A stretch of DNA of 64,000 nt, from the NCBI GenBank assembly GCA_020444415.1, contig JAHLLA010000006.1:1-64000 (forward strand). Reading direction: 5' to 3'. The translations under genes and the position numbers were made by a program. Source of the DNA: Bacteroidota bacterium (GTDB taxonomy: Bacteria > Bacteroidota > Bacteroidia > Bacteroidales > F082). Every line of letters begins with the position of its first letter. The first letter of the stretch is position 1. Below are positions 20,498-25,755 of the stretch, piece by piece. The notes under the pieces are model-generated. The model made no database searches. It was not told the origin of the DNA and saw nothing but the letters and a program-made list of their open reading frames with translations.

Positions 20498-21439
20498 ATG
20501 ATTCAAAAATACATTGCTTTTTTTCTGGGATGCCTGTTTTTTATATCGACATCATGTCAGCGACAGCAAGAAGTGATCAAGGTATTTCATGCCGGAAGTC
20601 TGTCAGTTCCATTGCATGCCATTGCTGACGCTTACGAAAATTTGCATCCTGGTGTTAAAGTCCAGTTGGAAGGTGCCGGTAGTTTAACCTGTATCAGAAA
20701 AATAACAGAGTTGCATAAAGTCTGTGATGTGCTTGCCGTGGCTGATTATGCGCTGATCGACCAGTTGATGATCCCTGATTATACGAACTTTAATATTTTG
20801 TTTGCCGGTAATAAAATGGCGATCGGATACAAACCCGGATCAACGTGGGGTGAAAAAATCAATGAAACCAATTGGCATGAGATTCTTTTGAGAGAAGATG
20901 TGCACTTTGGCCGCTCAAACCCGGATCATGATCCTTCAGGCTACAGAACCGAGATTGTGATGGGACTGGCAGAAAAACAATTACAAATTTCCGGTTTACA
21001 ACAAAGTTTACTGAATAAAGATCAGAAATTTATTCGTCCGAAAGGTACCGAGTTGCTTCCCTTATTGGAAACAGGAACCATTGATTTTATATTTCATTAC
21101 AGCTCGGTTTTACAACAGCACAACTTGTCCGTCCTGCGGCTACCCGACAGCCTCAACCTGAGTAATCCTGCCCTCGACGACTGGTATGCTTCCGTTTGTA
21201 CCGAGGTGGATGGAACAAGCCGTGAACAACGCATCACCAAGTGTGGCGAAGCAATGGTGTATGGTATCTGTCTTCCGGATAATGGAAACAATCCCAGTGG
21301 TGCAACCAAATTCCTGCAATATGTGCTGACAAACGGTAGAGATATTTTGGAAAAGCATGGGCAACCTACTATTCAGCCTGTTCTATCGCCAAAATCAATA
21401 GAAATTCCAGCATGGTATTCATCTAACATTATAAATTAA
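20498..21439 (+). CDS. wtpA: Tungstate/molybdate-binding lipoprotein of an ABC importer (WtpA-like)
   Basis: A 313-residue periplasmic binding protein anchored by a lipid (signal ending ISTSC, Cys20). It matches the WtpA/ModA oxyanion-binding group: VFHAGSLSVP, GAGSLTCIRKITEL, DVLAVADYALIDQLM, FAGNKMAIGY, NWHEILLREDV and the diagnostic DPSGYRTEIVMGLAE. It captures tungstate or molybdate in the periplasm and delivers it to the permease encoded two genes downstream. WtpA-type proteins prefer tungstate in archaea, but preference cannot be read here. It is the first gene of a four-gene run with spacings of 4, 3 and -14 bases, certainly one operon. Confidence 0.9.
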   Translation: MIQKYIAFFLGCLFFISTSCQRQQEVIKVFHAGSLSVPLHAIADAYENLHPGVKVQLEGAGSLTCIRKITELHKVCDVLAVADYALIDQLMIPDYTNFNILFAGNKMAIGYKPGSTWGEKINETNWHEILLREDVHFGRSNPDHDPSGYRTEIVMGLAEKQLQISGLQQSLLNKDQKFIRPKGTELLPLLETGTIDFIFHYSSVLQQHNLSVLRLPDSLNLSNPALDDWYASVCTEVDGTSREQRITKCGEAMVYGICLPDNGNNPSGATKFLQYVLTNGRDILEKHGQPTIQPVLSPKSIEIPAWYSSNIIN

Positions 21440-21443
21440 CCCA

Positions 21444-22508
21444 ATGAAAAAAATTCTTGTATCAAATTTAGCCATCATCACGATCTTTTTCCTTTTTGGA
21501 AAATGTACAACAATATCAAATGAAAAAAAACCAACTGCATTATTACCTGCAGTTGATACAATTGACGCTACCAATGATTTTTATGATAATGAAGCAACAC
21601 ATTTACTGCCTTTGGAAAAAATTATTGTGGATGGTGAAACTAAAGTCCAAGTAGAAATCGATTTGACCAGCTTGCCATTGCATTCGGTGATTGTAAAAGA
21701 AACAGCGTGGACTGCCGACAGTAACAAATTTATAGGTGCTTATCGATATGACGGACCTTCACTTTATGACATTCTGAATACTGTACCTTTAATAAAAAAA
21801 AATGCAGAAAAGTTTAACCCGATCATAGATGCATACGTTGAGGTCAGTAATGATGCGGGAGAAAAAGTAGTATTTAGTTGGGGAGAAATATTTTACCCGA
21901 TTCACCGTCATGAAATCATTATTGGAACCCGGGTGATGCAAATTGTTCCCAGCAAAACCAAAGAGTATTGGCCTTTGCCCGAAGAACCCCGGATGATTGC
22001 TGCGGCTGACTTGCTCACAGAAAGAAACATTAGCAATCCAAGCCGAATTACCATAAAATCTCTTGATCAATATTTTGAAGTGAATCGTGAATTAAACCCG
22101 ATGGTCTCCGAAAGCCTGGGAATTTATAAGGATGGACAGGAAGTGTCGCGTATTTCGGACATGCCTGAAGACAATGAAATCACTTATCCCAATATATTTT
22201 ATGGCCGGGGACGCGGAATTCATGCTGTTACACCATTTAGAGGAGTTTTGCTGAATAACCAACTTGCGTCTTTTTTCCCAATAAGCCGTGAAGCATTAAA
22301 AACCGGAATGTTTACTATTTCTTCAGTGGACGGTTACCGTGCAGCATTCACATACAGTGAAGTTATGAACAGGAATGACCAGTCGGAAGTGTTATTAATT
22401 GACAAAGGTGAAACTGACGGCGGACGTTTCATTATCTATCCTTCGGCAGACTTTTTTTCGGACAGGGCCGTAAAATCCATCGATGGAATCTGGTATAATG
22501 AACTGTAA
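21444..22508 (+). CDS. Lipoprotein with sulfite-oxidase-like (molybdopterin-domain-like) repeats, importer-linked
   Basis: A 354-residue exported protein with a hydrophobic signal and a possible lipidation cysteine at residue 21 (FGKC, a weak lipobox). Two segments resemble the sulfite-oxidase molybdopterin fold: YRYDGPSLYDIL with DAYVEVSNDAGEKVVFSWGEI (about residues 93-150), and FRGVLLNN with ISSVDGYRAAFTYSEVMNR (about 265-315). No cysteine lies where SUOX enzymes ligate molybdenum, so catalysis is doubtful. It sits between the oxyanion-binding protein and the permease, four and three bases from them. I infer a role in sensing, storing or delivering the metal or cofactor; this is a hypothesis. 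Confidence 0.65.
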   Translation: MKKILVSNLAIITIFFLFGKCTTISNEKKPTALLPAVDTIDATNDFYDNEATHLLPLEKIIVDGETKVQVEIDLTSLPLHSVIVKETAWTADSNKFIGAYRYDGPSLYDILNTVPLIKKNAEKFNPIIDAYVEVSNDAGEKVVFSWGEIFYPIHRHEIIIGTRVMQIVPSKTKEYWPLPEEPRMIAAADLLTERNISNPSRITIKSLDQYFEVNRELNPMVSESLGIYKDGQEVSRISDMPEDNEITYPNIFYGRGRGIHAVTPFRGVLLNNQLASFFPISREALKTGMFTISSVDGYRAAFTYSEVMNRNDQSEVLLIDKGETDGGRFIIYPSADFFSDRAVKSIDGIWYNEL

Positions 22509-22511
22509 AAA

Positions 22512-23306
22512 ATGAGACAGGGTAACCGAATACATATCTTTTCTGTATTTATGATGATGGCAGGTGCGCTGGTGTTGCTTTTTGTGATCGCACCACTGGC
22601 AGGCATGTTTTTACACACAAGTGGCAGCAGTATTGCTGAAGCGCTTCAGGATAACGAAGTAACACATAGCATACTGCTTACCCTGGGAAGTGCTATGGCG
22701 GCGACACTGATCTTTGGTCTAGGAATTATTCCTCTGGCCTGGCTCATGGCACGCCATACTTTTCGCGGAAAACGTATCATACAGGGAATTATTGACTTGC
22801 CTGTGGTTATCCCACATAGTGCAGCAGGCATCGCATTGCTCAGTGTGGTGTCAGAAAACGCCATCTTTGGAAAAGCAGCTGCAGGATTGGGATTTAGCTT
22901 TATAGGAACCATTGGAGGTGTTATCATTGCTATGGCATTTGTCAGCCTGCCGTTTCTCTTTAATGCAGCACGAGATAGCTTTGAGTCCATTGACCGTCGC
23001 CTCGAGTATGCAGCCATGAATTTGGGGGCTTCACCGGCCAAAACATTCTTCACTATTTCTTTGCCGTTGGCTAAAAATGGTATTGTTTCAGGAATGATCA
23101 TGATGTTTGCACGTGGCATGAGCGAATTTGGTGCAATTGTCATCATTGCCTATTACCCGATGGTTACCCCGGTTATGATTTACGACCGTTTTGCTTCTTT
23201 TGGACTGGAAGCCTCACGACCCATCGCCCTGCTTTTTATTTGTATTGCATTGATTGTATTTATCTTAATTCGCCTTTTTACACGCCCACGCTATGCTGCA
23301 CGTTAA
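22512..23306 (+). CDS. wtpB: Tungstate/molybdate ABC importer permease
   Basis: A 264-residue inner-membrane permease with about six TM segments. The ABC-permease EAA loop is clear (DRRLEYAAMNLGASPAKTFFTISLPLAKNGIVSG, about residues 160-193), which docks on the ATPase. It resembles ModB/WtpB. The final 14 bases overlap the start of the ATPase gene, so the two are translationally coupled. It imports the oxyanion delivered by the binding protein encoded first in the operon. Confidence in permease function is high; substrate rests on the binding protein. Confidence 0.9.
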   Translation: MRQGNRIHIFSVFMMMAGALVLLFVIAPLAGMFLHTSGSSIAEALQDNEVTHSILLTLGSAMAATLIFGLGIIPLAWLMARHTFRGKRIIQGIIDLPVVIPHSAAGIALLSVVSENAIFGKAAAGLGFSFIGTIGGVIIAMAFVSLPFLFNAARDSFESIDRRLEYAAMNLGASPAKTFFTISLPLAKNGIVSGMIMMFARGMSEFGAIVIIAYYPMVTPVMIYDRFASFGLEASRPIALLFICIALIVFILIRLFTRPRYAAR

Positions 23307-23997
23307 AGAAGTATCCATATACGTCGGAACATTTGCCGTGAACTCGGCATCTTTCCATATTAAAAAAGGCGAATATTATTTTCTTCTTGGCGAGAGTGGA
23401 TCAGGAAAATCATTGCTTCTGGAAGCCATTAGCGGCACCAGAAACATACAAAAAGGTAACATTATAGTAGCAGGCGAAGATATTACCAATCAGCCGTTGA
23501 ATAAACGAAATGTTGGGATTGTTTTTCAGAACCTTGCATTATTTCCACATAAAAAAGTATTTAAAAACATCGCATTTTCGTTGAACTGCCGAAAACTCGG
23601 CAAAAAAGAAATTGATTTTGAAGTACATCAAATGGCGGAAAAACTGGGTATTTCAAAACTGCTTCAGCGTTATCCTGAAACTTTAAGCGGGGGAGAACAT
23701 CAGCGGGTAGCATTGGCCCGAACCCTCATTATGAAGCCAGCTGTATTATTGCTTGACGAACCTTTGTCGTCGCTTGATATTTTGCTGAAAGAAGAAATGG
23801 TAGCTTTACTAAAGGAAATTCATCAGCTAGGTCAAACTATTTTACACGTAACACATGATTATCATGAAGTTGCCCAACTGGCGGATAGAATATCAATAAT
23901 TGAAAACGGGCAGATTTTGCAAACAGGGACCCGGCTCGAAATTTCAAAAGCACCTCGCAACCGGCTGGCACACCGAATCAGCAATCCATTCTTATAG
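23293..23997 (+). CDS. wtpC: Tungstate/molybdate ABC importer ATP-binding protein
   Basis: A 234-residue ABC ATPase. In order: Walker A GESGSGKS (about residue 34), Q-loop VFQNLALFPH, signature LSGGEHQRVALAR, Walker B VLLLDEPLSSLD, and the switch histidine in HVTHDYHE. It lacks the C-terminal TOBE regulatory domain of ModC/WtpC (family members are usually about 350 residues), so regulation by bound oxyanion is not expected in this subunit. ATG 23293 overlaps the permease gene by 14 bases. It is the last gene of the operon and faces a convergent yceI-like gene across a terminator. Confidence 0.9.
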   Translation: MLHVKEVSIYVGTFAVNSASFHIKKGEYYFLLGESGSGKSLLLEAISGTRNIQKGNIIVAGEDITNQPLNKRNVGIVFQNLALFPHKKVFKNIAFSLNCRKLGKKEIDFEVHQMAEKLGISKLLQRYPETLSGGEHQRVALARTLIMKPAVLLLDEPLSSLDILLKEEMVALLKEIHQLGQTILHVTHDYHEVAQLADRISIIENGQILQTGTRLEISKAPRNRLAHRISNPFL

Positions 23998-24830: not shown

Positions 24831-24859
24831 TTCGCCGACCAAATCAGACCATTCGCCGA
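24831..24859 (+). promoter_or_regulatory. Direct repeat TTCGCCGA x2 upstream of the repeat-protein gene
   Basis: TTCGCCGA occurs at 24831-24838 and again at 24852-24859, exactly 21 bases apart (two helical turns). The second copy ends 31 bases before a -10-like element (24890-24897). The arrangement fits two activator subunits bound side by side on one face, as LytTR-type response regulators do. The identity of the regulator is inference. Confidence 0.5.
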
Positions 24860-24889
24860 AAATGCCTTTCCTGTGGGCATAAATGCCTG

Positions 24890-24897
24890 TAATTTAG
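24890..24897 (+). promoter_or_regulatory. Near-consensus -10 (TAATTTAG) of the repeat-protein gene
   Basis: TAATTTAG differs from TAnnTTTG at one base and lies 31 bases before ATG 24928. A weak -10 combined with an upstream paired site is typical of an activator-dependent promoter. Confidence 0.45.
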
Positions 24898-24927
24898 CAC
24901 TCAGAAACAAATTAAAAAACTATAGAA

Positions 24928-25410
24928 ATGAAAACACAACTACAATTTACAGCCCTCGCAACTTTAATCGTTGCTTTAAGTTTTAGCCTGAATGCTTCAA
25001 CAATAATTCTTGAACCGGAGACATACATCAACGACATTCCTTTTGATACTGAAAAAATTGCTGCGGAGTATTTATACAATCAAGCTGTAGCAGAAACATT
25101 TGAACTGAATGAGGAAGCCTATATTGATGATATTCCTTTTAACACGGAATGCATTGCGGCCAACTGCATCTATCATAAAGCATTGCAAGTGAAATTTGAT
25201 TTTGAAGAAGAGTCCTATATTGATGACATTCCGTTTGATACTGAAAAGATAGCCTTGCAAAGTACATATGAAAAGGCATTAAAAGAAGAATTCACTTTGG
25301 CTGACGAACATTATATTGACGACATTCCTCTGGAACTGATGCATATGAAAACACAATCAATCGATTTAATATCAAATGAACTAAATACACTATTTGCAAG
25401 AGTAAAATAG
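24928..25410 (+). CDS. Secreted protein of four exact-period 32-residue repeats, unknown function
   Basis: A 160-residue protein. Residues 1-24 are a signal peptide (SFSLNAS). The mature part is four repeats with an exact 32-residue period beginning at residues 33, 65, 97 and 129: YINDIPFDTEKIA, YIDDIPFNTECIA, YIDDIPFDTEKIA and the degenerate YIDDIPLELMHM. Between cores lie helical spacers with an Ala-Leu/Val-Lys-Phe pattern. The second repeat alone has two cysteines (CIAANC), which could form a disulfide. I know of similar short Bacteroidota proteins with YIDDIPF cores but of no function. Its weak promoter with paired direct repeats suggests tight induction. Confidence 0.8.
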   Translation: MKTQLQFTALATLIVALSFSLNASTIILEPETYINDIPFDTEKIAAEYLYNQAVAETFELNEEAYIDDIPFNTECIAANCIYHKALQVKFDFEEESYIDDIPFDTEKIALQSTYEKALKEEFTLADEHYIDDIPLELMHMKTQSIDLISNELNTLFARVK

Positions 25411-25755
25411 CATGGATGAAAAGGTTGGTTTTAGTTTATTTTCTGAAAATTAACGGATTGGCAAAGCTGATCCGTTAATGCACTTCAATAAAAAAAAGGG
25501 TCAGAAAGGTCTCCAAACCTTCTGGCCCTTTTTATACAGAGCAAGCAGCTCACCAATGTATTTCTTAGAGAGGAAATGGTGTGAGGGTTTATACTGCACT
25601 TCAATTCAGAAAGTTTCAATTTGATTGTGTTTTTCTCCGCAATATGAATAATCATTCCAGTACCCATATGTTAAATAAATCCTAAATTACTGAAAATGAT
25701 AGTGTTTTAAAATATATATCGTCATATTTGGGAAAAACTAATCAAATAAACACCA
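25411..25755. other. Intergenic region with two hairpins and no credible gene
   Basis: A perfect 9-base inverted repeat, TTAACGGAT/ATCCGTTAA (25450-25458 and 25470-25478), lies after the repeat-protein gene, followed by a bidirectional terminator (listed separately). The rest has no coding potential that I accept. Near the right end CATATTTG (25723-25730), one base from the -10 consensus, may serve the peroxiredoxin gene. Confidence 0.6.
25490..25534 (+). terminator. Strong bidirectional terminator hairpin
   Basis: AAAGGGTCAGAAAGG (25495-25509) pairs with CCTTCTGGCCCTTT (25518-25531) with one wobble and one bulge around an 8-base loop. An A run precedes and a T run follows, so it can act on both strands. 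It lies 85 bases after the repeat-protein stop codon. Confidence 0.75.

Follow-up and report, generated by a model that had tools for sequence, protein, structure and literature searches.

Tandem YIDDIPF repeat proteins of one Bacteroidota family as candidate envelope-stress effectors behind LytTR-type or sigma54-like promoters

A stretch of 64,000 nucleotides from a Bacteroidota contig (the window) contains a gene for a small secreted protein built of tandem YIDDIPF repeats, preceded by a pair of short direct repeats. The locus raises the question of what such a protein does and which signal switches it on. Judged from their regulatory placement, YIDDIPF genes are probably effectors of a Lia/Psp-like envelope-stress response, wired either to a LytTR regulator or to sigma54. 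The interval that first drew attention, 24831-25410, comprises the putative operator and the gene (Table 1).

The original prediction described a protein with an export signal, four cores spaced exactly 32 residues apart with the fourth decayed, a CIAANC pair in one repeat only, and a TTCGCCGA pair 21 bp apart; all of these are found in the window protein and its promoter. The signal peptide is read at the N-terminus, where Met-Lys, a hydrophobic stretch and Ala are conserved in 35 homologues. The cysteine pair, confined to repeat 2 in the window protein, is optional among homologues, several having it in the same place and many having no cysteine there. The box previously called a weak -10 is present, but it is of the -7 type with one mismatch and occupies the same place in the paralogues; TAnnTTTG is the -7 promoter consensus of the Bacteroidota sigma-A type (PMC9723704). 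Upstream of the gene, positions 20498-23997 of the window hold a probable tungstate/molybdate-type ABC transporter operon, consisting of a binding protein, a second protein, a permease and an ATPase.

Table 1 Features of the YIDDIPF locus and of the candidate regulator gene. Coordinates refer to the window unless a contig is named.
Feature	Coordinates	Strand	Basis or remark
Operator half 1, LytTR-type (putative), TTCGCCGA	24831..24838	+	Same pair at regulator operons
Operator half 2, LytTR-type (putative), TTCGCCGA	24852..24859	+	21 bp downstream of half 1
-7 box TAATTTAGC, Bacteroidota sigma-A type TAnnTTTG with one mismatch	24890..24898	+	30 bp past operator
Gene, secreted YIDDIPF repeat protein, 160 aa	24928..25410	+	ORF call and translation; orthologue L017; six paralogues
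Sec-type signal peptide MKTQLQFTALATLIVALSFSLNAS, without lipobox Cys	24928..24999	+	By reading
Repeat 1, residues 33-64, core YINDIPFDT	25024..25119	+	
Repeat 2, residues 65-96, core YIDDIPFNT, Cys pair CIAANC	25120..25215	+	
Repeat 3, residues 97-128, core YIDDIPFDT	25216..25311	+	
Repeat 4, residues 129-160, decayed, core YIDDIPLEL	25312..25407	+	
Probable intrinsic terminator, hairpin AGGGTCAGAAAGG/CCTTCTGGCCCT then T run	25497..25533	+	By reading
LytTR response regulator gene	G000 C5:710358-711107		

DNA and protein searches place six paralogues on four contigs of the window's genome (G000, 3.15 Mb), at 36-60% identity to the window protein. A pattern search for DIPF[D/N/S]T finds 18 coding sites in this genome, every one of them within the six paralogues; the reversed pattern, serving as control, gives 0 coding sites there. 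An orthologue (L017) of 88% amino acid identity keeps the same TTCGCCGA pair and the same four repeats; relative to it, the ratio of nonsynonymous to synonymous change is 0.19 for the cores and 0.32 for the remainder of the protein, indicating purifying selection on the window gene. The conservation in this orthologue, the low nonsynonymous rate and the confinement of DIPF sites to the paralogues argue that neither the repeats nor the pair arose by chance. Relatives occur at 32 loci in public genome contigs, all from metagenome-assembled genomes, whose records are labelled Bacteroidetes, Bacteroidia, Bacteroidales, Marinilabiliales, Lentimicrobium or Chlorobiota. Within the same GTDB family, homologues are present in 62 of the 173 genomes and 13 of the 16 genera, at up to seven matches per genome; among 394 other Bacteroidia, sampled evenly across the class, there are none. 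The mature proteins are acidic, with a median net charge of -13 and of -22 for the window protein, whose mature part is about 135 residues long. The YIDDIPF family is a lineage-restricted, multi-copy group of small acidic exported proteins. No family of Pfam-A or NCBIfam reaches its cut-off for the window protein, and a PDB sequence search yields no significant match. The sole weak library match, OrtA, was rejected at 14 bits versus a cut-off of 27 (Pfam) and 15 versus 70 (NCBIfam). Phage and plasmid records contain no match to the family and so give no sign of a mobile origin. The motif, the family and its dual wiring were not found in the searchable literature, which leaves out most subscription journals; secreted envelope-stress effectors are already known as a kind, and the new part is this protein family together with its dual wiring.

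Across 143 repeats, the core follows [DE]E-x-Y-[IV]-[ND]-D-I-P-F-[DN]-T-x-x-[IV]-A, and most family members carry three or four copies of [DE]ExYI[ND]DIPF[DN]TxxIA. The D, P and F residues reach 100% conservation, T 99%, I 98% and the E two positions before Y 97%; the repeat search pattern required P and F, so that their 100% is partly built in, and D, I and T are less affected. The linkers are poorly conserved, with most positions below 1 bit and some semi-conserved hydrophobic positions. The claim of no length variation holds for the window protein but not for the family, in which the cores are 32 residues apart in 78 of 110 cases within a range of 25-33. Irregular spacing in homologues, named beforehand as evidence against the prediction, is thereby found in part, and the 32-residue period is preferred, not exact. 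AlphaFold models of the window protein and one homologue, both of low overall confidence (pLDDT 71 and 70, pTM 0.21 and 0.26, from shallow alignments of 35 and 32 sequences), predict one helix per repeat, starting just past DIPFxT, with an extended core, no sheet and no packing between repeats. These models hint that the protein could be a flexible chain. The earlier suggestion of a ligand with repeated binding units would fit the near-invariant core, the poorly conserved linkers and the lack of a predicted tertiary fold.

The paired site precedes five of the six paralogues as TTYRCCGA-N13-YTCRYCGA, with a 21-bp period and about 30 bp ahead of a TAnnTTTG-type box; CATTCRCCGA-like repeats of this period are found at five of the six paralogues and at many relatives. 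In the window's genome, the regulon was mapped by sequence patterns only: at no more than one mismatch, the pair occurs before four paralogues and in only two other places, and the fifth pair-bearing paralogue is picked up at two mismatches. The two remaining sites precede a LiaF-like/histidine kinase/LytTR operon and a PspC/LiaF operon. Known LytTR sites consist of two repeats of 9-11 nt with 11-13 nt between them, and in the YpdB site of E. coli the period is likewise 21 bp (PMC4847170). The pair before the window gene shares this geometry, with direct repeats upstream of the promoter at the spacing of known sites, and looks like a putative LytTR operator. Since it is common to the regulator operons, it ties the window gene to the LytTR envelope-stress regulon. 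The paired site, named but uninterpreted in the original prediction, is thus real and became the most informative feature of the locus. In genus g212, three half-sites lie in a phase of about 21 bp before the YIDDIPF genes L173:4059-4388, L173:9214-9585 and L174:13815-14144, at about -119/-98/-77; they read TAACCGA, TCACCGA and then TCGCCTA or TGGCCTA, an arrangement that suggests cooperative LytTR binding.

The first of the two operons consists of three genes, encoding a LiaF-like membrane protein (Pfam LiaF-TM 3e-14, LiaF-like C 6e-8), a LytS-type histidine kinase (His_kinase 1e-30) and a response regulator of REC-LytTR architecture (LytTR 1e-25). The second encodes a PspC protein (Pfam 2e-24) and another LiaF-like protein. 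At all 28 readable LiaF loci, the pair is located some 90 bp ahead of the LiaF start; two loci with the wrong ORF picked are not in this count. It also precedes PspC at all 26 loci whose start is right, two rows with a wrong start and two giving none being set aside. The window's genome may encode LytTR proteins besides that of the operon. The LiaF-like protein is present in 73 of the 173 family genomes. The large genus g208 lacks both this protein and the YIDDIPF genes; the co-absence concerns a single lineage and is therefore weak support for a connection. Of 74 genomes outside g208, nearly all have the LiaF operon and 12 have no YIDDIPF genes, so that the regulon does not need YIDDIPF genes. 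At L078:224-3357, the LiaF-HK-LytTR operon is convergent with ABC transporter genes, read as a LolD/MacB-like ATPase and an FtsX-like permease. In g208 genomes, many PspC-like matches cross one in-frame TGA, which would fit either readthrough of the stop or a division of the PspC part and a LiaI-like transmembrane part into two genes.

The sixth paralogue and most relatives are without the pair and have TTTGGCAC(G/A)-N4-TNG at -45 to -70, which has the geometry of a sigma54 -24/-12 promoter (TGGCAC at -24). In 40 such sites, the G located 11 bases after GG is kept 37 times, and the C following this G is not conserved. The 55 family genes whose readable upstream DNA spans at least 130 nt divide into 40 with the sigma54-like site, 14 with the pair and one with neither; none has both. 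The exception, at L048, has a doubtful start codon, and a start farther upstream would restore its sigma54-like site. As control, 253 ORFs outside the family were taken from the same loci: four have a sigma54-like site and two the pair, the latter being the LiaF and PspC operons. Shuffled upstream sequences give 0.3% and 0.1%, respectively. The patterns were defined after part of the 55 sequences had been viewed, so that the fairer test is provided by the control ORFs and by 11 family genes fetched later, all of which obey the alternative (10 pair, 1 sigma54-like). The strict sigma54 pattern is found in the window's genome at the sixth paralogue and one other site only, and rpoN is present in 163 of the 173 family genomes, the window's included. 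In Bacteroidota, sigma54 controls envelope stress as well as protein quality control. In Flavobacterium psychrophilum, genes for chaperones, for envelope stress and for exported proteins without a known function belong to its regulon (PMC9723704). Promoter types group together on a tree built from 56 proteins, with 7 changes in all versus 14.6 after shuffling, but do not form two clades. Each promoter label takes 6 changes on the best tree, of which well supported branches force just 1-2; the switch has likely, though not provably, been exchanged repeatedly in evolution. A sigma54-type paralogue is syntenic between an rsmI-like methyltransferase and a NUDIX-like hydrolase (L083:6977-7438, L020, L034 and others), and the copy at this place may be the oldest.

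In the mechanism proposed, the LiaF-like protein and the kinase would sense envelope damage, and the LytTR regulator would bind the pair and switch on its own operon, the PspC operon and YIDDIPF genes. Control of the regulator by itself and of PspC/LiaF is proposed on the basis of the operator common to all of them. In other family members, a sigma54-like promoter would take the place of the pair. Once exported to the periplasm or the cell surface, the acidic protein would bind an envelope component many times through its core. This conserved core would dock and the linker would act as a spacer, so that envelope components might be buffered or cross-linked, as by Spy and similar stress effectors. 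Such a multivalent envelope binder, proposed by analogy, is the favoured reading of the molecular action, at low confidence. A broader reading, less likely than not, is a new class of exported multivalent YIDDIPF effectors, expanded to as many as six or seven copies per genome, whose core would be the ligand of a conserved envelope receptor and which would be split between LytTR and sigma54 by a switch exchanged in evolution.

Several other explanations bear on these parts. The CACCGA pair might be the site of another shared activator, given that LytTR sites have no common consensus and the assignment rests on repeat length, spacing and position before the regulator operon; however, every readable locus of the LytTR regulator operon retains the pair upstream, and its period equals that of the YpdB site, which makes this activator improbable. 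The repeats themselves might form a folded solenoid or a filament-forming structural protein of the envelope, each combining the extended core and a helix. The dominant 32-residue period, the single predicted helix per repeat and the semi-conserved hydrophobic linker positions would suit such a fold, but the tolerated range of spacings weakens the earlier argument from an exact period to a structural array, and neither AlphaFold model contains inter-repeat packing or sheet. We consider a solenoid or filament rather unlikely.

Near-identical cores with variable spacers would also be expected of a precursor from which proteolysis frees secreted signalling or antimicrobial peptides, one per repeat. 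In two genera, a YIDDIPF gene is immediately followed by genes for an ABC ATPase and a large ABC-type membrane protein (L173:4059-9042, L176:1-4547), the latter with an M1 peptidase domain in L173 and none detected in L176. These genes were not seen next to YIDDIPF copies outside the two genera, and their position is compatible with envelope stress as well. The set of processed peptides envisaged in the original prediction finds little backing: the linkers have no conserved cleavage motif, basic or other, they are predicted to be helical and are near-constant in length, no peptide-processing or exporting gene is a general neighbour, and the sixth paralogue and many relatives sit among unrelated housekeeping genes. 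A peptide precursor is very improbable. A serious rival is an acidic surface decoy that would capture cationic antimicrobial peptides or divalent cations and whose expression would be triggered when such peptides damage the cell. The strongly acidic mature proteins, the ABC transporter behind a copy in two genera and the resemblance of the presumed regulator to Lia/LytS systems answering cell-wall-active antibiotics all agree with a decoy, but charge alone does not explain an invariant Y-I-x-D-I-P-F-x-T, and we consider it rather unlikely.

The proposed envelope-stress effectors share traits with several known systems. Spy and CpxP are small periplasmic stress proteins, the output of an envelope-stress two-component system. 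The YIDDIPF proteins are likewise small, exported and the proposed output of such a system, but they have no Pfam match and consist of tandem YIDDIPF instead of the LTxxQ helical cradle of Spy/CpxP, whose profile is not matched by the window protein at Pfam-A cut-offs. As in LiaFSR and PspC-LiaF systems (PMC11237479), the presumed regulator operon combines LiaF-TM and LiaF-like C-terminal domains with a two-component system, and the PspC-LiaF operon has the same operator as the regulator operon; here, however, the regulator is REC-LytTR and the targets are a new exported family. The portion of the Psp survey drawn on here names LytTR with Toastrack/LiaI-LiaF-TM for Firmicutes only (PMC11237479). 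E. coli YpdA/YpdB (PMC4847170) shares the LytS-type kinase, the LytTR regulator and direct repeats with a 21-bp period upstream of the target promoter, whereas here the operator sequence is another, a LiaF-like protein belongs to the operon, the operator also precedes the regulator operon and the proposed targets are envelope-stress genes. The F. psychrophilum sigma54 regulon (PMC9723704) resembles the present one in that -24/-12 promoters precede genes for envelope stress and for exported proteins without a known function; it differs in that YIDDIPF proteins were not seen in the sampled class outside their own GTDB family and that the paralogues are split between sigma54-like and LytTR-like promoters. 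An unannotated protein family thus gains a functional context, and a conserved Lia/Psp-like LytTR envelope-stress regulon is outlined in one Bacteroidota family, with a directly testable operator. The alternative between LytTR-type and sigma54-like promoters shows with unusual clarity a single protein family connected to two stress circuits, and the near-invariant repeated core points to a binding partner in the envelope.

The gene neighbourhoods agree with an envelope-stress role on contig C26, where a YtxH-like protein, CsbD, two MscS-type channels and a BrkB-type membrane protein are encoded near two paralogues. The NUDIX-like hydrolase, the rsmI-like methyltransferase and others were rejected as functional partners, as their recurrence reflects locus synteny between related genomes. 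Adjoining one paralogue, L080:5459-5899 encodes a probably secreted protein with short repeats of a SRYDADxxVY-like motif.
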